A stretch of 20,812 bases of DNA from a virus. Positions 5,885 to 20,812 of the stretch are shown in pieces (positions within the stretch are counted from its first letter, which is position 1; each line of letters begins with the position of its first letter). The stretch is from IMG/VR virus record IMGVR_UViG_3300031658_000183, positions 1-20,812 of that record; one strand, 5' to 3'. The notes beneath the pieces are model-generated. The model was not told the origin of the DNA, did no database searches, and saw only the letters and a list, made by a program, of their open reading frames with translations. The position numbers and the translations under genes were made by a program.

Positions 5885-5902
5885 TTTTTTCTGTTCTATT
5901 GT
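5874..5902 (+). promoter_or_regulatory. Candidate promoter for the rightward structural genes
   Basis: TTGATA at 5874-5879 and TATTGT at 5897-5902 are separated by 17 bases, matching sigma-70 spacing with 5/6 and 4/6 consensus bases. Transcription would start only a few bases before the terminase ATG at 5914, giving a nearly leaderless mRNA. The -35 element would lie inside the start of the divergent gene. Suggestive only. Confidence 0.3.
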
Positions 5903-5912
5903 TTTTAACAAT
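5898..5912. promoter_or_regulatory. Perfect palindrome in the divergent terminase intergenic gap
   Basis: ATTGTT-TTT-AACAAT is an exact inverted repeat with six-base arms filling half of the 29-base gap between the two divergent start codons. It covers the candidate -10 and start region of the rightward promoter, so it is well placed to be an operator, possibly for the neighbouring helix-turn-helix protein. With AT-rich arms a chance origin cannot be excluded. Confidence 0.45.
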
Positions 5913-5913
5913 T

Positions 5914-7701
5914 ATGTCTTCAAAAGAACAAAGGAGCAAGCAGTTACTCGAACCAAGAATCGACCCTAAAACAAAAAAGATGGACGTAGGTGGGTTTAAA
6001 ATCCCCCCAACTAGTTTACTCACAGCCCTTTTGTATGGGTTTGCCAACCATGAAGTAGTGACTGCGAGAGAATATTATTTCTGGCGGGTGTGCGATGAGC
6101 TTTGGAATAATGACGAGCTTCCAGAAAAGTTAATGGTCCGCCACCCTTGGGCAAGCCTCATGATCCGTGCGGCATTAGAGAATAAATATTTGGCTGTGGG
6201 TGGGTCAGCTTCATCAGGAAAGAGTCACACTATGGCAGCTTGGGGGATAGTGAATTGGTTATCGAAGCCTCAAGACACGCTAATTCTTATGACTTCAACC
6301 ACGCTTCGTGAAGCCCGTAAGCGTATCTGGGGGAGTGTAATGTCTCTCCTGTCCGTGATTGACGATGCACCAATCAAGATTCGGGATTCAATCGGAAATG
6401 CTTCCTACGTTAATGAGAAAGGAATTTTAATTGAGCGAGCAGGACTTTCTCTGATCTCGGCAGAGAAGAGCAAGACTAAAGAAGCGGTAGGTAAGTTTAT
6501 CGGGATCAAACAGAAGCGAGTGATCCTCATTGGTGATGAGCTGTCAGAATTGTCGGAAGCAATTTTGAATGCCGGACTAACTAACTTGTCGAAGAACCCG
6601 TCATTTCAAATGATTGGGATGAGTAACCCCAACTCCAGATTCGATGCCTTTGGGATATGGGCTACGCCAAAAAGCGGGTGGGATAGTGTAGACACGAACA
6701 CAGAGGATGCTTGGGAGACAAAATGGAATGGGAAATATATTCGCTTAGACGGTGAGAAATCCCCAAACATTGTAGCGGGAGAAGTTATCTATCCTTGGCT
6801 CCCAACCCAAGAAAAACTTGACGAGGACAAGGCACTGTTGGGTGTTGAGAGTAGGGGCTATATGCGAATGGTAAGAGCTGTGTTTTTTGATAGTGATGAG
6901 ACCACAGGAATTTACACGGAGAACGAATTAACATCTTCTGGTTCTTTGAATAGAGTAAACTGGCAAGGGAATCCGGTAAATTTGGCTGGGCTAGACCCTA
7001 GCTTTACCAATGGCGGGGATCGGACAGTTCTTTTCTTAGCGCAATGTGGCTACGATATCTCAGGTCAGTACGTGATTGAGTTTGGAAAATCCATCCACTT
7101 GAATGACGACGCGACAAACAAGGCGATTCCTCGCACATACCAAATTGTTGAACAGGTAAAAAAAGAATGTATTAAGAACAACGTGCCGCCCGAGAATCTC
7201 AGCGTTGATGCCACGGGAGCGGGTGCTCCATTCTGTGATGTTCTGGCTGGGGAGTGGTCGAACAAATTTATGAGAATTTCTTTTGGCGGGAGGGCTAGTG
7301 ATAAACGAGTTAGCGCAAACAGCTCTAAAATCGGGACGGAGTTATACGTAAATCGTGTATCGGAGTTGTGGTTTGTGGGGAAAGAATTGATGCGGACCAA
7401 ACAAATCTTTGGGATTGACCCCGAACTCGCACAAGAAATGACCGCTAGAAACTACGACATAGTTAAAGGGGGGAGCCTACGAATGAAAATAGAATCGAAG
7501 CCAGAGTTTAAAGCTCGCTTCGGTAGAAGCCCCGATCTTGCCGATGCTGCATTTCTGGCGTTGGATTGTGCTAGGCAACGGCTTGGTTTAGTGGCGGTTG
7601 ACCCCCCCGATACAGAAAATCCAGCCATGCCTTACCGGAGGACGACCATAAAAAATCTGACTAGTGCTTTACAAAACGCAGAGACCACCCTCATCGATTG
7701 A
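5914..7701 (+). CDS. terL: Terminase large subunit (packaging ATPase and nuclease)
   Basis: Motor and nuclease that translocates and cuts phage DNA at the capsid portal, 595 residues. The ATG at 5914 is preferred; an in-frame TTG at 5899 lies within the palindrome. The ATPase domain has a Walker A loop GSASSGKS with K103 and a Walker B strand RVILIGDE with D208 and E209. The C-terminal RNase H-like nuclease has acidic residues D361 (GLDPSF), D432 (SVDATGAG) and D541/D544 (SPDLADAAF). All expected parts are present at a normal length. It is the first gene of the rightward block and is followed by probable virion genes, not by a portal gene as in many phages. Confidence 0.96.
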   Translation: MSSKEQRSKQLLEPRIDPKTKKMDVGGFKIPPTSLLTALLYGFANHEVVTAREYYFWRVCDELWNNDELPEKLMVRHPWASLMIRAALENKYLAVGGSASSGKSHTMAAWGIVNWLSKPQDTLILMTSTTLREARKRIWGSVMSLLSVIDDAPIKIRDSIGNASYVNEKGILIERAGLSLISAEKSKTKEAVGKFIGIKQKRVILIGDELSELSEAILNAGLTNLSKNPSFQMIGMSNPNSRFDAFGIWATPKSGWDSVDTNTEDAWETKWNGKYIRLDGEKSPNIVAGEVIYPWLPTQEKLDEDKALLGVESRGYMRMVRAVFFDSDETTGIYTENELTSSGSLNRVNWQGNPVNLAGLDPSFTNGGDRTVLFLAQCGYDISGQYVIEFGKSIHLNDDATNKAIPRTYQIVEQVKKECIKNNVPPENLSVDATGAGAPFCDVLAGEWSNKFMRISFGGRASDKRVSANSSKIGTELYVNRVSELWFVGKELMRTKQIFGIDPELAQEMTARNYDIVKGGSLRMKIESKPEFKARFGRSPDLADAAFLALDCARQRLGLVAVDPPDTENPAMPYRRTTIKNLTSALQNAETTLID

Positions 7702-9565: not shown

Positions 9566-12500
9566 ATGTCGGACCCAAGCAAACCAAACACAACAACACC
9601 GTTTAGCCCCACGCCATATAGCGTGTGGGCTACAGAAAACCCTTTTGAAAACGAACTGGAGGGTAGAACTAAACACCTAGATAACCTGCGCCTTGAGACT
9701 ATTCGGGCGGGTAAGTATAATGAAGATTTTGAAACAGATCTTCAAGAAAGGTTTGAGACTTCTTTAATTGAGAAGGGGCTATTGACGCAATCAAATCAGC
9801 AACAAGTTCAAGAAGCTATCCTAGAATTTTCCAATGTTCTCCCATCTAATCAAAAAGATGTCCTGTTTGTTAAGGACAATATGGGTGTTGGATCTGCTGA
9901 GATGGATTTCGAGGAGGGGGAACAAGAGAAGATTTTGCGCTACGCAAAAGCTTTAGAAACGGGGCAAGAGCTACCGGAAGATATAGACGTTAATGAAGTG
10001 CATGAGATAGCACGGCAAAAAAGACAGAACTATGTGACGGAGCTATATGAAAATGGGACGTTGTCGGCTGGGGTTTACTACAACAAGAGCGGTAGGCGTG
10101 TTTTTCTCGGGGGGAAGATGGATGATAACTCATCTGAGGCGGAAATCTTACAACAAATGGGGCCATTTGGTGTGGTTCCCAGAGATGTCTTTTCGTTTAG
10201 GGATCAACGAGAAGTTCAAAAGGATAAGAACGACTTGATGTTATACGAAGTCGATCAACGGGAACGAGCGCAGGACAAAGTCGAAGCTTTTTTAGATCCA
10301 CAAGATCCTCTCAAAGACGAAAAAACTGTGGCTCGATTCGATGCATTGGCTACGTCTTTAGGGAAAGCGAAGTCTTGGGGTTGGATGGACAAGGGGGTCG
10401 ATTCTACTGGGGAAGTATTCGTTTCAATTGCCTCAAACATTAGGGAGAGTTGGAACTGGGCTACAGGTGACGACGAAGAAAAGAAATTCTCTGAAGACTA
10501 CCAAAGGTTTGAGGGACTACGAGAAGAGTATGAAGATGATTACGATCAAACTCATCGTGATCTTATTGCAGATCTTGCGGAGAAGACCGGACTTAGTGGG
10601 CAGATTCTAGAAGATGTTGTTGACGACATGGTCGTAGAGATAGCTGGGAATGGATCTGACACTCAGGAGCCGACGCTCAATTATGCCGAAGATGATGACG
10701 AACTAACGGAAAATGTTGTCCGCCGGAAGTATCGGGGTAATTTTATTCAACCAGCTTTAGCATTAACACCAGAGAAGTTTAGGAAAACTTTATCGCAAGC
10801 TGGTTTTACTGCGGAAGAAATCAAAATGGAGGATGGGAAGAGACTAGCCAGCAATGAACTTTTAGCAGCTAGTCGCAGTGACCTTTTTAGAGCGGACAAT
10901 GATTACGTAAATGCGTTTCAATTAGCAGAGATTTCGGGCGCACAAGCGGGGCTAACTCAAGCAGAGATAGTTGAGAAATTTGTAGCAGACGAAGACCCCA
11001 ACTTGGGTTTGGAGGGGGTTGGCCTGAGTGTCGTCCAAGGTTTTTCGACTTTGTATTACGGGGCGGGTGCGTTGTTCGGGGCAGAGTATGGGACAGAGGG
11101 ACTACTTGAGAACGCTAAAGATCAAGCTCACCTAAATCAGATGAGAACGATCTTCGGTCAAGATGCGGGGGTGATGCAAACGGGAGCAGAGCAAATAGCT
11201 CCTATGGCTGTGGATGCTGTTATTGGTTTCGGTGCAGCACTACTTTCCGCTCCGACACTGGGAACAAGTGTTGCTGCTGCTGGGGGATACTTCGCTGTAA
11301 AGCAGGGGGCGACGGCTATGGCTAGAGCCGCGCTTAAAAATACTTTTAATACTGCTCTAAAACAGCAACTCAGAAATGATGCTACGGGGCGACTCATTAA
11401 AGAAAGCACGGGAGCTGCTGTCCGAAGATTGCAAACAGCAGGGACATTAAAAGGTTTGTCCAACCAGCAAATGATTTCAGTAGTTAAAAACTACAATGGT
11501 AAGGTAGCCAAAAGTTTGTCCCTCAACGCCTCTCAGTTTGCTCCTGCTGCTTTGCGCTCAGGGAGTATGACTTATGGGGCGGTCCATAGGACTGTCTACG
11601 ACGACTACACTCAGAGGTATACAGTTAATGGGGAGTGGGTGGATGGGTGGAGCGAACAAAGAGTAAAGGAAGTCGCGCACAAAGCTGGGTTTGAATCCAT
11701 GATCGCCGCCGGAACAACCACGGGGCTTATAACTGCCATCGCAGGGAAACTAGGAGGCGGAAAATATGGTGGTCTTGAGAGTGCGGTTCTTCAAGGAGTA
11801 AGTTTCCGAGCACTTAAGAAAAGCACGGACCGGATGGTGGCGCGTGTCTCCTCAGATAAAGCATTTCTGGAATACATGGAGAAGGCTGTTTCTAGCACGT
11901 TGAAGGAGGCTGGGTTAGGATTAGGGGGTCGTGTAATTAGGGGGGGTGTGGGTGAAGCAGCAGAAGAATTCATCGATGAGTTCGCGAACACAATTATCCA
12001 AGACGCTTGGACGCAGAAAGAAACATCTTTTGCGGATGCACTTAGTTCCGCTTTGATGGGTGCTGCAGTGGGAGGCTTTATGGGTGCTGCATCCCCCGCC
12101 ATTGGTGGGGGCTTAAAAGAATTAGCACCGACAAGATCGATGGATTCCGACAAGATGGTGGAGATCGATCAAAAGGTTGACGCTGAGTTCAGAAGATTGC
12201 TGGGGGCTAATGACAAATTAAAGGCGTTTGAAAATCTAGAAAAAACAGCTCCTCAAAGTAATGCAGAGTTTATAAAACGAGTTAAGGCTGAATACACTAA
12301 AGAGGAAGCTGCTGCAGAGGAAGCTGCTGCAGAGGAAGCTGCTAAAGAACCCGAAAATGAAAAAGAGGTTACAAAAGAAGATGTCACAGAAGAAGCGAAG
12401 CAATTAGAACAGGACGTTGAAGATAATGCCACACCAGAAACTCAACAGAAAGTAATCAACGAAGCTGAGTCTGAGAAGAAAACCAAGAACCAAGCTTCCC

Positions 12501-15500
12501 CTATCGTATCGACTAGCGATGCGATTACTGGAGTTACAGAAACTGATACTAATCCGGCTGCTGCCAATGCAGATGTTACTTCTAATACCCCATCCGCTAA
12601 CCCCCCATTGACCCCCCAACAGAAATACGAAAATTCTATTAAGGATATTCAAGCTAGGGAAAAGAAATACAACACACAAATCGCTGCTCTTGGAGAGCTT
12701 CCGGCAGATCTCCAACCTGCTAGGTTGGCTGAGATAAAGGCTCAAGTAAGAGATGGGAGAATGGTCACCTCAGTTGAAGCGGGTCTCCTTATTACGAAAG
12801 CAAATCGGCAGCGGGAAAAAGCCATAGCTGATGAAGCTAAACCAGCTAAAGTCACTAAGAAAGATTTAGATAAGCTAGAAGCAATTATTGATCAGGGTTT
12901 TCCGGTAGCTGATATTAGCACTAACTTGGAGCAACTGGGTCTCACTCTCGGAAGAACAGATGAGAAATATTTAAGGGCGGTAGAAAAAGTAATCAAAGAA
13001 AAGATTGCAGAGAGATACCCCACAATAAACCCAAAACTAAAAAATGGGGGTGTAAGACTACCCAATACTTTGGTTCCTTCGGGGACTGTTATTATTGATA
13101 GGGACGGGAACGGTGTGTTTAACAACGACCCCGCAGGGATGGTAACCTTGTTGCGGAACAACGTAGCTATTCCTCTAACGGAAGATCAAGCAACCAATCC
13201 CAATCTAAACAAATCCTTTGTCGTGGAAAAACAGGGGGACAACTACTTTGTTTCCGACATAATGGTTCCTGTTAAGGGGGGCTTGATTTCGGCTAAGACT
13301 CCAATAACAAAGATCGGGGTTCACGAATCAGATTACGGTCCCGTCAAGGATAAGATCCGAAGGGTTACCACTCTAAGGAACACGGTTGATTTAGACGCTG
13401 TCAAAGATGTAAAGGTAGAAAGTCCGTTCCGACTCGGCTCCGGCAAGAAGCCTTCACAAATAAGTTTCGTTGAGTTACTCAAAGAAGCTAGGAATTTACC
13501 CGCTCTTAAGAAGATTCTAACACAAGATTCTGTTCCTAATCTGAGCAAAGATTATTTAGATACTGCGGCTTTAACAATGAGCTTAGATCTGCAGGAGCAG
13601 ATTTATAAATATGCCCAGCAGGAAGCGGGAGGTAACTTAAATCTGGATTTAAAAGCGTCAGCCATAAAGAACGCTAAGTTCTTTGGCGAGGTTGAAGCAG
13701 CTAGGAAATCAAAAGCTATTCGTGATGTAGCCTCTTTGCTTGAACCTGATTCTGACATAACCAAGAGACCAGACTTATACGACGTAGAGAAGCAAAGTGA
13801 AAATAGTTTCATCCCACCTAAAGTCGCGACCATCAAACCCATTGCGGAACCAAAAATACAGGAATATATTTCTTCAAAGATTGATGATGTAGCAACAGCT
13901 ATTAACTTAGATGAACGTCTCCGAAGAGATGTAAAAGATCTTCTCAACAACGAGTATCACGGTGGTAAGAAAGTAACTAACAACTACTCCGCCGAGCAAG
14001 TAGCGATAGAGTTTGTCCATTTCTTAGCTTCAAATAGTGGGTCGAACAGACCTGCAGCGGTTCTAGAATCCAAACTTAGTAGTCGTTCTCTGAGTGTTAT
14101 TAACCCCGAATACAAATTGGGGCAGGACATGAAAGACGCTCTCACTTTGTTGGGGGTAACTAGTCCAACCCTTCATGGATCTTTGGATGTAGATACTGAA
14201 TTCTATTCGTTGATTGAGACACAGCTAAAAGGGTTAGTCGGGAAAGATGCGATGCTTTCGTATGCTGATGTAAAAACTTTTTACACTCAAGTTAGAAACC
14301 AAGCGGCTGTTCACAAGAAGAGAGCTATTAACGATGGGCGTAGTCGGGGGAAAACCCGACGCAAAAACTTAGCGGAGATAGAGCAGTTGGGTCTGATAGA
14401 TGATGACCCACAATCTGTAATTGATGCTCTTGAAGAGGTCGCTGAGTCAGGGCAAAAACCCTACAGCCTTTTAGCGAAAACCCTACTCAAGAACAAAGAG
14501 CTTATTCGTTCGGTCAGATTTTTCATAGATAGTAACCCAGCATCTTTTGCAGGGGCGTATTACATGGATGGCTTGGGGCAGAGGACGGTAGTAATTAACG
14601 TGGATAGGGGGACCAACGTAGTGGATACTTTAATTCACGAGTATCTTCATGCGTTTACTAATGACATCTTCCGCACACCACCGGAACATAGAACGGCAGC
14701 TCAGAATGAAGCCGTTACGAACCTAGAAGAGCTACTCCGTATCGCTCAACCATTTGCGCGTAAGTCTGGTAAAGGTAATCTTGTGTGGGGTACGGCAAAC
14801 ATCGACGAGTTCTTGACTCACATACTAACTGATACTGAGTTTCAGAAGTTTCTTAACGGTGTAATCCCCTCGAAGGGAGGCGCAAACCTCTTACAAAGAA
14901 TTATTAGGGAAGTGGCTAAGTTGCTAGGCGTAAGAACTTCGGAACTAAAGTCAGCTATTCAAGCCGCGCTTGACCTAACTAAAAGTGCAAACAGACCTCA
15001 GCCCGAAACCAAAGCATCGTTCGCGAGTCAGGCTGCAGGAAGCATTCACAAGTCTCAAGCTCAACTCCACCAGATGTCAAAAGACATGGACATGGGAAAT
15101 GATGCGGCTGTAAATGAAAAGCTAGAAGAGAGATCTAAGGAGATCGTTGAGTTCGCTGCGGCTTATGTCCCAAGTGAGCTTAATGTAGTCGTGGATGAAG
15201 CAAGCCCTGAGATAGCAACCGTCGATAATAATACGGGTGCGCTTATTCTCAATCCAAAACGAGCAGCTCTGTATCTAGCCAACCAAGGGGTAGAGGGGCT
15301 GGATGCTCAGAGGAGGAAACACGCCCTCGGAATTATTTTAAATAAGGCAGTAGGTCAGGCGGCAGCAGACACGATGATAACGGATGATCAGTATGTTGCC
15401 ATAACTGAGTCGATGACTGAGTCAGAGATAGATGCCGAGATAAGAGAGGCATACCCACTTGATGAGCAGGAGGCTGCGTTCGAAAGATTAAGAAGTGCTG

Positions 15501-18500
15501 ACGCAAAGGTGTCTGCCACTGAGAGGTTTGACTTAGCTAAGAAAGCAATTGCTAGACACACTGATTTAGCCACTACCGGAAGGACAACTAATCAGCAGAT
15601 CGCTTTCTTGCAGTCCAACCCTTCATTGATCCCAACCTTCATCACTTACATGAAGGCGTTCCTCAGTAAACTTACTTATCACAGGACACTGAAAGATGTT
15701 TCTCCTGAGATGAGGAAAGCTGTTAACAATACAGTGAGAGAAATCAGGGGGTTAGCACTTAACTACAAGCCAGCTCCTAGCATTATGAACCATAATCCTC
15801 GCGACCCATACGCAGTCGTGGAGAAACTTATGGGGCAAGCCATCGATGTTAATATGCTAGAGCCTACTACTAAGACAGATAGTGCTAGTCTACGAAATCG
15901 TTTAATAGATCAGAAAGATTCCGAATCTGTTGTTTTGAGAAAACCAGATACACAACCGGATACTGAATCTCAATTTGGCCAAGACTCTAAACTCCCTACA
16001 TTCGCAACCGAAGTTGAGATGCAGGAAAAAGATATCGGAAACTGGTTGGAGATTCTTGATGTCCCCCTCTTAGAATTTAGTGAAGACTATGAGTTTTCAA
16101 AGATGGGTAGGGTAAAGCGGACTCTATACAAAACTTTTCTCCGTGCCGCAGACAAGCGTGTTGTTAACTTCTACGACCAAAACAAAGCTTTTGTTCGCGA
16201 GACAAAAGGGCTTGTTGATGAACTCCAAAAGAAGCACAACAGAATTTTAAAGGCGGAAGATGCGCGACTAAGTTCTATCACAGGCACTGCGACCGGAAAC
16301 ATTCCGGCTCAACTTATTGCTAGAGCTTCGGGAACTACCGAAGGATCACAACTAACTACGGCGCAAGAAGATCTGGTTCAAGAGGGGTATCTAAAAGATC
16401 TAGCAAACGCGAATAAGCTACCCACGGTTGATGAAAAGAATGCCGCTATTGATCTAGCCGAAGCTGGTAAAAAGCAAAAGACATTAGACCTCCGAGAGGC
16501 GAATCGTAAAAAGCAGTTTGCCGAGCGGGATGCAGCGATGCATGATCTGTTATCTCTATCTCCCGACATGTATAATTTGGTCATCGAGATGAGGCAGATC
16601 CAAGATCAGCTTTCAAAGAAAGCGATAGAAATCTTTGGACCTTCCATGAATCCCGAAGATTTGAATATGGCTTTTGATTTTAACAGGGGTCTGTATTTAA
16701 CAAGGTCATATCGTATGTTTGAAGACCGTAACTTCTCGAAGCGAGTTAAAGAGTCTGATCAATACGCCGAGGTTCGTGAACGAGCAGTCGCTTACTTCAT
16801 GAAACAACTGCAAAGCCAAGCGGTCGATAAGCTTGTGCTGGGGGGAACCGTAACCAAGGGTCAAGCTCAGCTCAAAGTAAGAGAAGAAGCTGTTGGGAAA
16901 GACTCTAAAATGCAATCGGACGCAACGGCGATGATGAATAATTTCATTGACGGGTATTCTCGGGCAGAATCTAGGAAGAAGATCCTAAGTTCCCAGCGAC
17001 AAATGGGGGAACAAAATTTAGTTCTACAGGATGTAGGGTTCCCGAAAGGGGGTCCACTTGAAAAGATTGTTGAAAAGATAAATAACAAGAAGGAAATTCC
17101 AGAACCAATAAAAGAATTGCTTGGTGAGTTTGGTGAAGACACTGGCATTTATAATCTCAGCTACTCGTTGAACCACACAGCGAGCATGATTTCTAATCAG
17201 GCGTTCTTTAATAAACTAAAAGAACTGGGAACTAATAGTGACAACCCGTGGATGGTTACCAGAAAAGAATACCTAGATAATCCAGCAAAGTATCCAGACT
17301 GGGATACGGTCCTAGTCGAAGGGAGTGGTGATCTTAATCCGCTTAAGGGTATGTATGTCCCCATACAAGTAATCTCTAATTTAAAATCTTTGTTCGGGGG
17401 TAAGGAACCCGATATAACTGATCCACTTAATGAGATGGCAGAGCTGCAGGGGATGCTGATGCGAGCGACTAAAAAATCTGTAGGACTTTCTCTTGCTTAT
17501 AAGGTTCTGGGATCTCCTTCTTTCTACATCAGAAACGTCATCGGCAATATGTTGTTCTTTGGCCCAATGCAGGGCTACCCATCACACAGAGTGATAAGAG
17601 ATTTCGGTAGAGATGCTACGGGTATGTTTACTAAGAATCCTGACTCAGTCTTCTACCAGTTGGGTGGGTCTGAATTAAGTTTTAAACTCCGAGAACTTAG
17701 ATCAAGGAATGTTTATGGAGACGAGCTTGAAGTATCTCAGATACAAGAGCTTCTCTCAGGAAAAATAAGCTACGATAGTTTAGCAAATGATCTAGACAAA
17801 GTAGCTGCTGCTTCTGGTTTCCTTAAAAAAATTAAGAATAAGAGCGGAGCTGTTAAGATCCCTGATGAACACATCGAGATACTAGCGAAGGTGGGAGTCA
17901 AAATAACCGAGACGGGTATGATGCCAGTGAAAGCTCTGCTTGTGGCTAACAAATTTCTTTTGGAGAAAGGGGGCGCTCTAGCCTCCGCTTGCGACGGGTT
18001 CTTCAAGATTGGTCTCTATGATTTTGAGATGAAGACTTTGATCGAAGCCGCTCAACACGATATAGAAAACGGAAAACCATATGGGAAGTATGGGAAACTG
18101 CTAGATAATAACGGCGAGCCGAATAACACCATGAAAGATATGGCTGCGGAGATCGTGAAGGACACAGCACAATCCTACAGTAGAGCCTTACCAGTTATTA
18201 AATCATTCACATCCAGTAATCTCTCCATTGCTATCGCTCCTTACGTTCGATTCGCGGCTGATGTGCCTAGAGTTTTTGCGAACGGACTAGCTAGGGGGGT
18301 TAAGGAAAGAGGGAGCGACAACCCAGTCATCAAAGCTAGGGGTAGAAAGCGTTTGCTGGGAGCCACAAGGACTACGGCTGCGTCTGTTGCCATGACTAAA
18401 GGAAGCCAGATGCTCCTTTGGGGTATCGACGACGAAGACGAGGACAAAGCATTCCGTGCAATGGTTCCCAAGTGGATGAAAAATGCAGGGATTCTTGTAT

Positions 18501-19348
18501 TCAAAGACTCTGATGGGGACACATGGTCAGCCGATATAACTTACCTAAACCCATTCGCCATCATTCAAGATCCTGCTGTCAGGGCTATCGAGTCGTTGGT
18601 CAGAGGAGAGGGAATCAAGGAAGCCACGACGAAATTTATAGGTCAGGTTTTGAAACCCTACGCCAGTGAACAAATACTTACAGGGGCTTTCCTCGATGTT
18701 TTTCAAAACGAAAACCAGTATGGTAGCCCAATAGTTCTGGACGGAGATGACGATAAGTTTGCTAGAAGGAGGGATTATATATTTGAGAAAGCCTTCTCAC
18801 CTAGATCACTAATGTCGGCTGATGCGGCTTATGATTCCTTCCTCTCCAAGGAAAGCACCGCCTCGTTCTTCGACTCGGGAATCGGGCATCTTCTAAAATC
18901 GGTGATGCCTTTGCGACTACACCAACAAGATTACACAGCCGGAGTAGGGCGTTACTTATATAACCACACGGACGAATACAGAAATAACAACCAAGCATTC
19001 AATACGAAGATGGGGCAAATGGGTGTTCTTCCAAAGAAGGAAGTGTTGGAGGCATACGACAGGTTCTTGAGGAACAGGATGTATCTGAACAACGACTTCA
19101 AACAAACGATCAGAGGGTTTGAAAAGATCGGTTTGTCCCGCTCAGATATTGCACGTATTGCACGATCTAGGGGGGTTAGCGCAGATCGGCTAAAGAATAA
19201 TCAGCTAGGCTTTATGCGTAGACCTGTCCCATCCGCTCCACTGAAGGAAAGGCTTGAGGAAACAGCTAATGGTCGGAGGCGGCTTCAGTATGTTAAAGAA
19301 CACTACGAACAAAATTACCCGAACGAGCATATCAGCATAGACAAATGA
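9566..19348 (+). CDS. Giant 3260-residue polyvalent virion protein with zincin-type metalloprotease motif
   Basis: One uninterrupted frame of 3260 residues, probably packaged in the virion and ejected with the DNA. Residues 1-470 are acidic and helical. Gly/Ala-rich hydrophobic stretches occur near 480-509, 545-580 and 822-852, plausible membrane-interacting parts. A low-complexity acidic linker starts at 913 (EEAAA repeats), followed by a Thr/Pro/Asn-rich spacer to ~1000. An EF-hand-like loop lies at D1178-x-D1180-x-N1182. A zinc-protease motif HEYLH (H1691, E1692, H1695) is followed by E1748 in NIDEFL, a likely third ligand. The region from ~2150 contains FYIRN near 2653 and a block near 2870-3090 (ALPVIKSFTSSNLSIAIAPY) resembling large polyvalent protein domains such as LPD38. 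No lysozyme, transglycosylase or T7-type RNA polymerase motif was seen. By position it is analogous to T7 gp16. Confidence 0.85.
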   Translation: MSDPSKPNTTTPFSPTPYSVWATENPFENELEGRTKHLDNLRLETIRAGKYNEDFETDLQERFETSLIEKGLLTQSNQQQVQEAILEFSNVLPSNQKDVLFVKDNMGVGSAEMDFEEGEQEKILRYAKALETGQELPEDIDVNEVHEIARQKRQNYVTELYENGTLSAGVYYNKSGRRVFLGGKMDDNSSEAEILQQMGPFGVVPRDVFSFRDQREVQKDKNDLMLYEVDQRERAQDKVEAFLDPQDPLKDEKTVARFDALATSLGKAKSWGWMDKGVDSTGEVFVSIASNIRESWNWATGDDEEKKFSEDYQRFEGLREEYEDDYDQTHRDLIADLAEKTGLSGQILEDVVDDMVVEIAGNGSDTQEPTLNYAEDDDELTENVVRRKYRGNFIQPALALTPEKFRKTLSQAGFTAEEIKMEDGKRLASNELLAASRSDLFRADNDYVNAFQLAEISGAQAGLTQAEIVEKFVADEDPNLGLEGVGLSVVQGFSTLYYGAGALFGAEYGTEGLLENAKDQAHLNQMRTIFGQDAGVMQTGAEQIAPMAVDAVIGFGAALLSAPTLGTSVAAAGGYFAVKQGATAMARAALKNTFNTALKQQLRNDATGRLIKESTGAAVRRLQTAGTLKGLSNQQMISVVKNYNGKVAKSLSLNASQFAPAALRSGSMTYGAVHRTVYDDYTQRYTVNGEWVDGWSEQRVKEVAHKAGFESMIAAGTTTGLITAIAGKLGGGKYGGLESAVLQGVSFRALKKSTDRMVARVSSDKAFLEYMEKAVSSTLKEAGLGLGGRVIRGGVGEAAEEFIDEFANTIIQDAWTQKETSFADALSSALMGAAVGGFMGAASPAIGGGLKELAPTRSMDSDKMVEIDQKVDAEFRRLLGANDKLKAFENLEKTAPQSNAEFIKRVKAEYTKEEAAAEEAAAEEAAKEPENEKEVTKEDVTEEAKQLEQDVEDNATPETQQKVINEAESEKKTKNQASPIVSTSDAITGVTETDTNPAAANADVTSNTPSANPPLTPQQKYENSIKDIQAREKKYNTQIAALGELPADLQPARLAEIKAQVRDGRMVTSVEAGLLITKANRQREKAIADEAKPAKVTKKDLDKLEAIIDQGFPVADISTNLEQLGLTLGRTDEKYLRAVEKVIKEKIAERYPTINPKLKNGGVRLPNTLVPSGTVIIDRDGNGVFNNDPAGMVTLLRNNVAIPLTEDQATNPNLNKSFVVEKQGDNYFVSDIMVPVKGGLISAKTPITKIGVHESDYGPVKDKIRRVTTLRNTVDLDAVKDVKVESPFRLGSGKKPSQISFVELLKEARNLPALKKILTQDSVPNLSKDYLDTAALTMSLDLQEQIYKYAQQEAGGNLNLDLKASAIKNAKFFGEVEAARKSKAIRDVASLLEPDSDITKRPDLYDVEKQSENSFIPPKVATIKPIAEPKIQEYISSKIDDVATAINLDERLRRDVKDLLNNEYHGGKKVTNNYSAEQVAIEFVHFLASNSGSNRPAAVLESKLSSRSLSVINPEYKLGQDMKDALTLLGVTSPTLHGSLDVDTEFYSLIETQLKGLVGKDAMLSYADVKTFYTQVRNQAAVHKKRAINDGRSRGKTRRKNLAEIEQLGLIDDDPQSVIDALEEVAESGQKPYSLLAKTLLKNKELIRSVRFFIDSNPASFAGAYYMDGLGQRTVVINVDRGTNVVDTLIHEYLHAFTNDIFRTPPEHRTAAQNEAVTNLEELLRIAQPFARKSGKGNLVWGTANIDEFLTHILTDTEFQKFLNGVIPSKGGANLLQRIIREVAKLLGVRTSELKSAIQAALDLTKSANRPQPETKASFASQAAGSIHKSQAQLHQMSKDMDMGNDAAVNEKLEERSKEIVEFAAAYVPSELNVVVDEASPEIATVDNNTGALILNPKRAALYLANQGVEGLDAQRRKHALGIILNKAVGQAAADTMITDDQYVAITESMTESEIDAEIREAYPLDEQEAAFERLRSADAKVSATERFDLAKKAIARHTDLATTGRTTNQQIAFLQSNPSLIPTFITYMKAFLSKLTYHRTLKDVSPEMRKAVNNTVREIRGLALNYKPAPSIMNHNPRDPYAVVEKLMGQAIDVNMLEPTTKTDSASLRNRLIDQKDSESVVLRKPDTQPDTESQFGQDSKLPTFATEVEMQEKDIGNWLEILDVPLLEFSEDYEFSKMGRVKRTLYKTFLRAADKRVVNFYDQNKAFVRETKGLVDELQKKHNRILKAEDARLSSITGTATGNIPAQLIARASGTTEGSQLTTAQEDLVQEGYLKDLANANKLPTVDEKNAAIDLAEAGKKQKTLDLREANRKKQFAERDAAMHDLLSLSPDMYNLVIEMRQIQDQLSKKAIEIFGPSMNPEDLNMAFDFNRGLYLTRSYRMFEDRNFSKRVKESDQYAEVRERAVAYFMKQLQSQAVDKLVLGGTVTKGQAQLKVREEAVGKDSKMQSDATAMMNNFIDGYSRAESRKKILSSQRQMGEQNLVLQDVGFPKGGPLEKIVEKINNKKEIPEPIKELLGEFGEDTGIYNLSYSLNHTASMISNQAFFNKLKELGTNSDNPWMVTRKEYLDNPAKYPDWDTVLVEGSGDLNPLKGMYVPIQVISNLKSLFGGKEPDITDPLNEMAELQGMLMRATKKSVGLSLAYKVLGSPSFYIRNVIGNMLFFGPMQGYPSHRVIRDFGRDATGMFTKNPDSVFYQLGGSELSFKLRELRSRNVYGDELEVSQIQELLSGKISYDSLANDLDKVAAASGFLKKIKNKSGAVKIPDEHIEILAKVGVKITETGMMPVKALLVANKFLLEKGGALASACDGFFKIGLYDFEMKTLIEAAQHDIENGKPYGKYGKLLDNNGEPNNTMKDMAAEIVKDTAQSYSRALPVIKSFTSSNLSIAIAPYVRFAADVPRVFANGLARGVKERGSDNPVIKARGRKRLLGATRTTAASVAMTKGSQMLLWGIDDEDEDKAFRAMVPKWMKNAGILVFKDSDGDTWSADITYLNPFAIIQDPAVRAIESLVRGEGIKEATTKFIGQVLKPYASEQILTGAFLDVFQNENQYGSPIVLDGDDDKFARRRDYIFEKAFSPRSLMSADAAYDSFLSKESTASFFDSGIGHLLKSVMPLRLHQQDYTAGVGRYLYNHTDEYRNNNQAFNTKMGQMGVLPKKEVLEAYDRFLRNRMYLNNDFKQTIRGFEKIGLSRSDIARIARSRGVSADRLKNNQLGFMRRPVPSAPLKERLEETANGRRRLQYVKEHYEQNYPNEHISIDK
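12302..12343 (+). repeat. Tandem 15-base repeat encoding Glu/Ala linker
   Basis: GAGGAAGCTGCTGCA occurs twice in full, followed by a third copy of 12 bases, encoding EEAAAEEAAAEEAA at residues 913-926 of the giant protein. It begins a charged low-complexity linker that separates the hydrophobic N-terminal third from the protease-containing middle. Slippage-prone. Confidence 0.9.
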
Positions 19349-19395: not shown

Positions 19396-19725
19396 CTAGC
19401 GCAATTCTTTGTCTCGTTCTTCGTGGAACATTGCCTTGGCTAGTATTGCATAGTTGATGATGTCTTCACAGGCATCGTCAACTGTCTCCCCAGACACAGA
19501 CAACTCACCATCGTTCGTGAATGTTTTTATGCGTTGGATTTTGTCCATAACACGCATCATTATTCCGGTCACAGGATGCACGTTCAACATTGTTGAACAC
19601 CGGAAATTTGCGAACACATCATCTGCATTCTTCCCGCCTGTGTAATCGCTGTTCTTCTTCTCCATAATCTTTCGGCATTTATCCGCAGTATCTTCATGGA
19701 GTTTGAGTAGTTGTTCTAAGGTCAT
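19396..19725 (-). CDS. DUF1599 / nucleotide-modification-associated (Nmad1-like) protein
   Basis: A 109-residue all-helical protein matching the DUF1599 (Nmad1) pattern: KKNSDYTG, then DDVFANFR, then HPVTGIMMRVMDKIQRIKTF, and finally the acidic helix ETVDDACEDIINYAILAKA. The family is common in phages and is thought to act on, or accompany enzymes of, modified nucleotide metabolism. The Glu/Asp-rich helix recalls MazG-like all-alpha NTP pyrophosphatases. Substrate is unknown. Its ATG overlaps the stop of the upstream 26-residue peptide gene by ATGA, and it is the last gene of the leftward unit before the convergent hairpin. Confidence 0.75.
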   Translation of the reverse strand: MTLEQLLKLHEDTADKCRKIMEKKNSDYTGGKNADDVFANFRCSTMLNVHPVTGIMMRVMDKIQRIKTFTNDGELSVSGETVDDACEDIINYAILAKAMFHEERDKELR

Positions 19726-19802
19726 GAGTCTGTTTTAAACGTATCTATGAATAGAATCAATAGAGCAATCAGAATAATTAAAAGGGCGATCTCTTGATTC
19801 AT
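19722..19802 (-). CDS. 26-residue single-span membrane peptide
   Basis: A very small gene, below usual gene-calling cut-offs. It encodes a polar start (MNQE), a continuous hydrophobic segment IALLIILIALLILFI of 15 residues, and a polar tail DTFKTDS. The start overlaps the upstream stop and the stop overlaps the downstream start, both as ATGA, so it fills exactly the space between two genes. That double coupling and the clean membrane span are strong evidence that it is translated. Function is unknown. Possibilities include an inner-membrane modulator, a pinholin-like or superinfection-related peptide, or a membrane anchor for a partner. It is far shorter than known holins, so a holin role is only speculation. 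Confidence 0.75.
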   Translation of the reverse strand: MNQEIALLIILIALLILFIDTFKTDS

Positions 19803-20083
19803 TGGAACTCACCTCCCGTAATTTGATGGATGGCTTCCTCGACTTGTTCGTAGTGTCTCGGGTCTGGGCTAGTGTCCCCAACCAATGCCAAGATACTTCT
19901 AATAAACAAATCGAGATGTCTCTTCTGGTTCGCCCTCACGCAACGAATACTTGCTGCGGGTGCGAAAGCAATGATGCTCCATCCTGATGGGTTCATCTGG
20001 TTGTCGTCCTGCCTAGCCTTTAGAGACAGAGTGCGGTCGTTAATATCTATTATGACAGAGGTTGTATTATCTGGTTCTTTCAT
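19799..20083 (-). CDS. Protein of unknown function
   Basis: A 94-residue soluble protein I do not recognise. It begins MKEPDNTTSVIIDINDRTLS with a beta-strand look and has a central stretch SGWSIIAFAPAASIRCVRAN. The helical end HLDLFIRSILALVGD is followed by a tail with YEQVEEAIHQITGGEF. It starts three bases after the helicase stop and its own stop overlaps the start of the 26-residue membrane peptide, so it belongs to the same leftward unit. There is no metal-binding or catalytic motif. Function unknown. Confidence 0.7.
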   Translation of the reverse strand: MKEPDNTTSVIIDINDRTLSLKARQDDNQMNPSGWSIIAFAPAASIRCVRANQKRHLDLFIRSILALVGDTSPDPRHYEQVEEAIHQITGGEFQ

Positions 20084-20086
20084 ATG

Positions 20087-20812
20087 TTAAAATTGGTTCG
20101 GCCCTGTGTAATACGAAGAGGTAAGTTCCCCTACTCGGGAGTGGTGTATCTTATTCATGTTATCCATTTTACGGTTGATAGCTTTCATGACGTATTCCTC
20201 AATCGATCCGTTCGATATCATCACCTTTTGTAGCGCGTCAGACTTCGCCCCGTTCCGGTGAATCCGTCCAAGCACTTGGCTGAATTCTTTGGCGTTGAAA
20301 CTAGGGCTAATCAAAGATAAGCGAGGGCGGTTTCCAAGCGTGTCATGCAGGGATATACCAGTCCCTCCTGTCGCGGCATTGAGCACGATACAATTTGTTT
20401 CGTCCGCTTGGAACTCATCAATGAAACGGTTCCGTTCTTCCTGCTTTACCGTCCCAGAGATGTAGTTACAATTTAATAACGTAGCTGTTTCCAGTAGCGA
20501 CTCGGTAAAGTTCATGAAGACTGCAACACTGTAGCCTTCTTCTACTGCATCTTGAGCCATAGCAACTATGTCTTTTACTTTCAGTAGCTCGCACTCTTGT
20601 CTAGCTCTCAATATCTTTACGAGGATACTCATCTCATCCGACTCCTCCAACCATTCAGACGGAAGCATTCCCTTTTCAATGTAATCTGTAACGTGAGACG
20701 CACTCATCTTCAGTGCCTTATAACTCTTAATAATCTTAGCGTTATTAGAAAACTGGATCGGGTCTACCAGCACTCGGTTTCCTCGGAAGGAATCGGGGAA
20801 GTCTGCAACAGT
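20087..20812 (-). CDS. Snf2-like superfamily 2 helicase, C-terminal part (5' end outside window)
   Basis: The frame is open to the right window edge. A GTG at 20773 is in frame, but 13 further codons (TVADFPDSFRGNR) precede it, so the gene continues beyond the window. Visible is the second RecA-like domain: a strand VAVFMNF (motif IV region), then IVLNAATGGTGISLHD (motif V), and QVLGRIHRNG (motif VI, with QxxGRxxR arginine fingers). This matches Snf2/UvsW-type ATP-dependent DNA translocases. The missing N-terminal part should hold Walker A and DExx. In phages such proteins remodel replication forks or recombination intermediates. The 94-residue gene follows after three bases. Confidence 0.88.
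   Translation of the reverse strand, partial: TVADFPDSFRGNRVLVDPIQFSNNAKIIKSYKALKMSASHVTDYIEKGMLPSEWLEESDEMSILVKILRARQECELLKVKDIVAMAQDAVEEGYSVAVFMNFTESLLETATLLNCNYISGTVKQEERNRFIDEFQADETNCIVLNAATGGTGISLHDTLGNRPRLSLISPSFNAKEFSQVLGRIHRNGAKSDALQKVMISNGSIEEYVMKAINRKMDNMNKIHHSRVGELTSSYYTGPNQF

Follow-up and report, generated by a model that had tools for sequence, protein, structure and literature searches.

Is a 26-codon open reading frame enclosed between two longer viral genes itself a gene, and what would its hydrophobic peptide do? The question is raised by a locus on the minus strand of the window, which is the whole 20,812-nt stretch analysed (IMG/VR virus record IMGVR_UViG_3300031658_000183, positions 1 to 20,812). 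The features of this locus, in window coordinates and hereafter named as below, are as follows.

19396..19725, minus strand: Nmad1 (DUF1599) gene, 109 aa (PF07659, nucleotide modification associated domain 1, E = 2.3e-6)
19722..19725, minus strand: ATGA overlap of the mini-TM stop and the Nmad1 start (exactly 4 bases in 11/11 copies)
19722..19802, minus strand: mini-TM gene, 26 aa, MNQEIALLIILIALLILFIDTFKTDS (open reading frame call, conservation in 10 related contigs, purifying selection)
19799..19802, minus strand: ATGA overlap of the 94-aa gene stop and the mini-TM start (read from the sequence)
19799..20083, minus strand: orphan 94-aa gene ("MKEP" family with the motif NPSGWSIIAF), confined to this phage group
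19803..19819, minus strand: Shine-Dalgarno-like GGGAGGTGAG before the mini-TM start (duplex energy -11.6, the strongest of the window starts compared)
20087..20812, minus strand: C-terminal part of a SNF2-like helicase, cut by the window edge (Helicase_C, E = 2.8e-9; phrog_62 DNA helicase; SNF2 matches)

A preliminary description of this DNA had reported the 26-codon frame with an ATGA overlap on each side, and this arrangement was confirmed in the minus-strand sequence, with the ATG at 19802-19800 and the TGA at 19724-19722. The clean hydrophobic core attributed to the product is likewise present, as a single helix at approximately residues 5-21 with a KD17 of 3.06. The same description had placed the frame together with a helicase and an Nmad1-like gene; Nmad1 is indeed a direct neighbour, but the helicase is not, the orphan 94-aa gene lying between and the helicase being one gene further upstream (454-475 aa at full length in relatives). 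The locus belongs to a block of replication genes, and its Nmad1 end is convergent with a giant gene of 3,000-4,200 aa. In the window this giant gene (9566-19348, plus strand) encodes 3,260 aa on nearly half of the length, with a Pfam match below threshold only; in relatives it encodes 3,067-4,183 aa, some copies being cut by contig ends.

The gene downstream of mini-TM is a genuine Nmad1: AlphaFold2 predicts an all-helical, soluble protein (pLDDT 87.8), whose fold matches in BFVD are viral Nmad1 proteins. With regard to a MazG-type pyrophosphatase, a poor first model gave weak MazG matches and the better one none that was significant. No description of Nmad1 biochemistry was found in the literature searched, nor any relative of Nmad1 among the genome contigs searched. 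Elsewhere, Nmad1 was observed immediately behind what is probably the portal gene (753-755 aa) in another group of related phages (L010, L012, L017, L018), and after a MazG-like 111-aa gene in L033 and its relatives.

When IMG/VR was scanned with the 94-aa family, Nmad1 and the helicase, 17 records with this synteny were obtained, the window being one of them, together with a subgroup of more distant relatives. The gene order in these relatives is helicase, 94-aa gene, an optional "MRIIR" gene, an optional mini-TM gene and Nmad1. The mini-TM gene is carried by 11 of the 17 records (the window, L001, L002, L003, L004, L006, L008, L009, L028, L029 and L030), and a profile built from the 11 peptides (26-33 aa, KD17 2.4-3.5) found exactly one copy in each of them and no displaced copy in the six others. 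The overlap with Nmad1 is fixed at 4 bases in all copies, while that with the upstream gene varies. The preliminary description had regarded a broken frame or lost hydrophobicity, in relatives keeping the flanking genes, as evidence against the gene; no such decay was seen, the frame being open and the KD17 at least 2.4 in every copy, but the gene is altogether absent in some of these relatives. On the tree these form four scattered lineages in which both flanks remain, and mini-TM is therefore considered as an accessory gene. In two of the records without it (L005, L007) the MRIIR gene leads straight into Nmad1; in the other four (L025-L027, L095) it is the 94-aa gene that comes immediately before Nmad1. 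In the tree, the window branches among L001, L002 and L003, each carrying the MRIIR gene, so that the simplest history is that the window lost MRIIR and kept mini-TM.

No isolate relatives were found for the mini-TM peptide, the 94-aa gene or the terminase. A tblastn search of 50,697 isolate phage records gave no match for the large terminase subunit of the window (5899-7701, plus strand; phrog_2, E = 2e-11), and the group is therefore one without close isolate relatives; it is uncultivated and probably marine. That the peptide is undescribed, as had been supposed from the first reading, is upheld by the lack of any match of its family in Pfam, PHROGs or isolate phages; the same searches returned nothing for the 94-aa gene. 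A replication operon of this group thus carries at least one unannotated membrane peptide.

The coding status of the mini-TM frame was assessed against all 1,282 open reading frames of 20-40 aa in about 334 kb (the window and the fetched relatives). Only four of these share an exact ATGA at each end with a gene of 60 aa or more, and every one of the four is the mini-TM gene. A 3' ATGA is present in 19, of which 11 are strongly hydrophobic, versus 20 of the 1,282 overall. The search of related phages and the check for selection that had been proposed at the outset gave, beside the same gene in 11/17 records, a pooled pN/pS of 0.29 (p = 1.8e-7) from four independent sister pairs, in which 39 synonymous differences fall on 84.7 sites and 37 non-synonymous ones on 272.3; with the window-L001 pair added, the values are 0.32 and p = 4e-8. 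Changes at codon positions 1, 2 and 3 number 36, 14 and 50. For six of the eight comparisons, neutral simulation at the observed divergence retained an open and equally hydrophobic frame in less than 3% of the runs. The other same-strand frames across the mini-TM frame contain stops in every copy, leaving no alternative coding frame on that strand. The pN/pS and the frame kept open in 11/17 records are thus those of a protein-coding gene: mini-TM is a genuine protein-coding phage gene, and chance is excluded. At 81 nt it lies below the usual gene-caller minimum, 90 nt by default, and it offers a clear and testable case of a phage microprotein under that limit shown to be coding by comparative data alone. 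It represents a new family among the small membrane peptides of phages, and its tightly coupled location just ahead of Nmad1 is unusual. Like the phage proteins of <100 aa in the catalogue of Fremin et al. 2022 (as cited in PMC11323111), it is short, of phage origin and easily missed by gene callers.

Translation signals around the mini-TM gene are unevenly distributed. In the 11 genomes with mini-TM, no Shine-Dalgarno site precedes Nmad1 (mean +0.8, with the caveat that the E. coli anti-Shine-Dalgarno sequence was used for scoring), and since most genes of the window phage have weak sites, this absence is only suggestive. A site is present at Nmad1 (about -5.3) in L005 and L007, two of the four lineages without mini-TM, and there is none in L025-L027 and L095, also without it. 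Of 14 gene pairs of the ATGA/TGATG type that were tested, 13 showed strict coupling (PMC6728339), and short overlaps are enriched among subunits of complexes in E. coli, 30.4% versus 6.8% of pairs (PMC10666635). Because Nmad1 has no Shine-Dalgarno site where mini-TM precedes it, and in view of these published pairs, termination-reinitiation coupling from the mini-TM frame to Nmad1 is likely on sequence grounds. Ribosomes would load at the mini-TM frame and re-initiate at Nmad1 through the ATGA, and the peptide and Nmad1 would be made in step. The fixed, ATGA-coupled position before Nmad1 also offers a handle on both proteins.

The explanation of function that we prefer, and to which we give slightly less than an even chance, is that mini-TM is an accessory inner-membrane peptide whose helix would pack on a membrane partner, most likely a host protein. 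This step was inferred from size, helix and distribution and by analogy with two bacterial peptides. The mini-TM product has the form of these peptides, a single hydrophobic helix in less than about 50 aa with no other domain, and single-helix bacterial peptides of 27-30 aa alter the state of the membrane or membrane proteins, as described for YohP (PMC12719787) and MgtR (PMC6813294). MgtR (30 aa) and YohP (27 aa) resemble mini-TM in size, in their one hydrophobic helix and in having no soluble domain; mini-TM differs in being phage-encoded and, according to the predicted coupling, co-translated with Nmad1. Among PDB sequences, the mini-TM profile had a single weak match, 2mc7, a 30-aa regulatory peptide which we take to be MgtR (E = 0.026, over 15 hydrophobic residues only); this match is not significant and is probably compositional.

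Conserved positions were examined in the alignment of the 11 mini-TM peptides. An acid occupies column 10 in all 11, small residues are found at column 13 (10/11) and column 20 (11/11), column 27 is small or polar (10/11), and a K stands near the C-terminus in 8/11. Columns 13, 20 and 27 are exactly seven apart and on one helix face, a spacing noticed after the fact; a formal helical-moment test for periodicity of small residues was not significant (p = 0.15). The peptide would insert as a single-pass protein in the inner membrane, and the face bearing the acid and then the small residues would pack against its partner. The partner would most likely be a protein of the host inner membrane, and the peptide would alter its activity or its stability during infection in the manner of bacterial peptides such as MgtR, the main alternative being Nmad1. 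A host protein is favoured over Nmad1 because mini-TM occurs patchily and Nmad1 does without it elsewhere; such patchiness would be expected of a gene tuning an interaction with the host and not of a core gene.

Of the other readings, the one that survives best, although we consider it rather unlikely, is that mini-TM serves Nmad1 as its membrane partner and binds it, so that Nmad1 itself or its nucleotide-related activity would be drawn to the inner membrane, at a ratio fixed by co-translation. Its strongest argument is the slot itself. Among 339 starts in the fetched genomes, a mini-TM frame overlaps (by 0-14 nt) 13 of 18 Nmad1 starts versus 0 of 321 others, the loci being related and not independent events. 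In the more distant subgroup, the slot is filled by a second mini-TM peptide of 32 aa (MSDWLFD...) with a single helix, which overlaps Nmad1 by 11 nt and was found at the following positions.

L144:4003-4101: second mini-TM peptide
L147:3943-4041: second mini-TM peptide
L148:1906-2004: second mini-TM peptide

In these three genomes, different genes lie between the 94-aa family and Nmad1, and hhalign detected no homology of the second peptide to the first mini-TM family. In the main group, the junction of mini-TM with Nmad1 stays while the upstream neighbour varies (MRIIR present or not), and the commonness of short overlaps among complex subunits cited above fits a partnership. The specificity of the slot and the second family in it could thus point toward Nmad1 rather than the host as partner. 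Against this, the four lineages without mini-TM have Nmad1 without any peptide, and Nmad1 evolves far more slowly than mini-TM (pN/pS 0.02-0.16 in the same comparisons); moreover, within one family, a shared slot is simply inherited gene order. Of 21 clusters of genes that precede Nmad1 in other phages, 3 are membrane-like, without excess over a background of 17-22%, so that co-occurrence was not found beyond this phage group and a general link of Nmad1 with the membrane was rejected. An obligatory role of mini-TM as Nmad1 anchor is not favoured, because the presence or absence of mini-TM is reflected in no core residue of Nmad1 and other phages show no such excess of membrane neighbours. That Nmad1 and a membrane mini-peptide make up a two-gene module of the phage appears doubtful; if it were true, two unrelated mini-TM families in the same overlapping slot would imply that Nmad1 chemistry is run at the host inner membrane.

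The preliminary description, whose interpretation is supported in part, had also suggested a superinfection peptide; as such, mini-TM might act from the membrane in superinfection exclusion, blocking the entry of related phages. Its size, single helix and patchy presence fit such a role, which we nevertheless consider improbable: the comparison is purely by analogy, there is no homology to a known family, and nothing points specifically to the blocking of entry. In the context of type I toxins, no Rfam family was found in the window.

A role of mini-TM in lysis, as a minimal holin, pinholin or lysis inhibitor, is very unlikely. As holins are, it is a small hydrophobic phage protein with a hydrophobic helix, and L028 and L030 have a GH24 lysozyme gene behind Nmad1, in the same orientation. 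However, no copy is adjacent to an endolysin gene, this lysozyme being separated from mini-TM by Nmad1, and mini-TM is unlike holins in having one helix in 26-33 aa and in its place among replication genes. Nine contigs have separate lysis genes, an Amidase_3 endolysin closely preceded by a holin-like TM frame of 54-59 aa in a late block, both with mini-TM (L001, L006, L008, L028, L030) and without it (L005, L007, L025, L027), and on this basis the lysis reading was rejected. The lysis block of the group (L116-L124) comprises a 58-62 aa TM frame, the holin-like frame and the Amidase_3 endolysin. In L107 and L109 (families F33 and F34), an extra GH24 lysozyme gene follows Nmad1 and a 101-aa TM protein is encoded on the opposite strand; these two may form a second lysis pair beside the amidase.

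That mini-TM is a leader frame, its translation delivering ribosomes to Nmad1 and its peptide having no function, accords with the invariable ATGA junction and the missing Shine-Dalgarno site, but is the least credible reading of all, as the selection on the amino-acid sequence argues against it and a leader needs neither hydrophobicity held beyond neutral expectation nor acid and small residues at fixed positions.

Two further observations were made around Nmad1 in this phage group. A few genes upstream, the same operon encodes a protein of family F9 (L106:261-662, L114:365-709, L100:4268-4627 and others), whose CxxC pairs may form a zinc ribbon and which has an N-terminal TM helix, the latter missing in L107 and L109. 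Directly after Nmad1, L100 encodes a stand-alone DnaA C-terminal DNA-binding domain (L100:7690-8043; PF08299, E = 3e-12).
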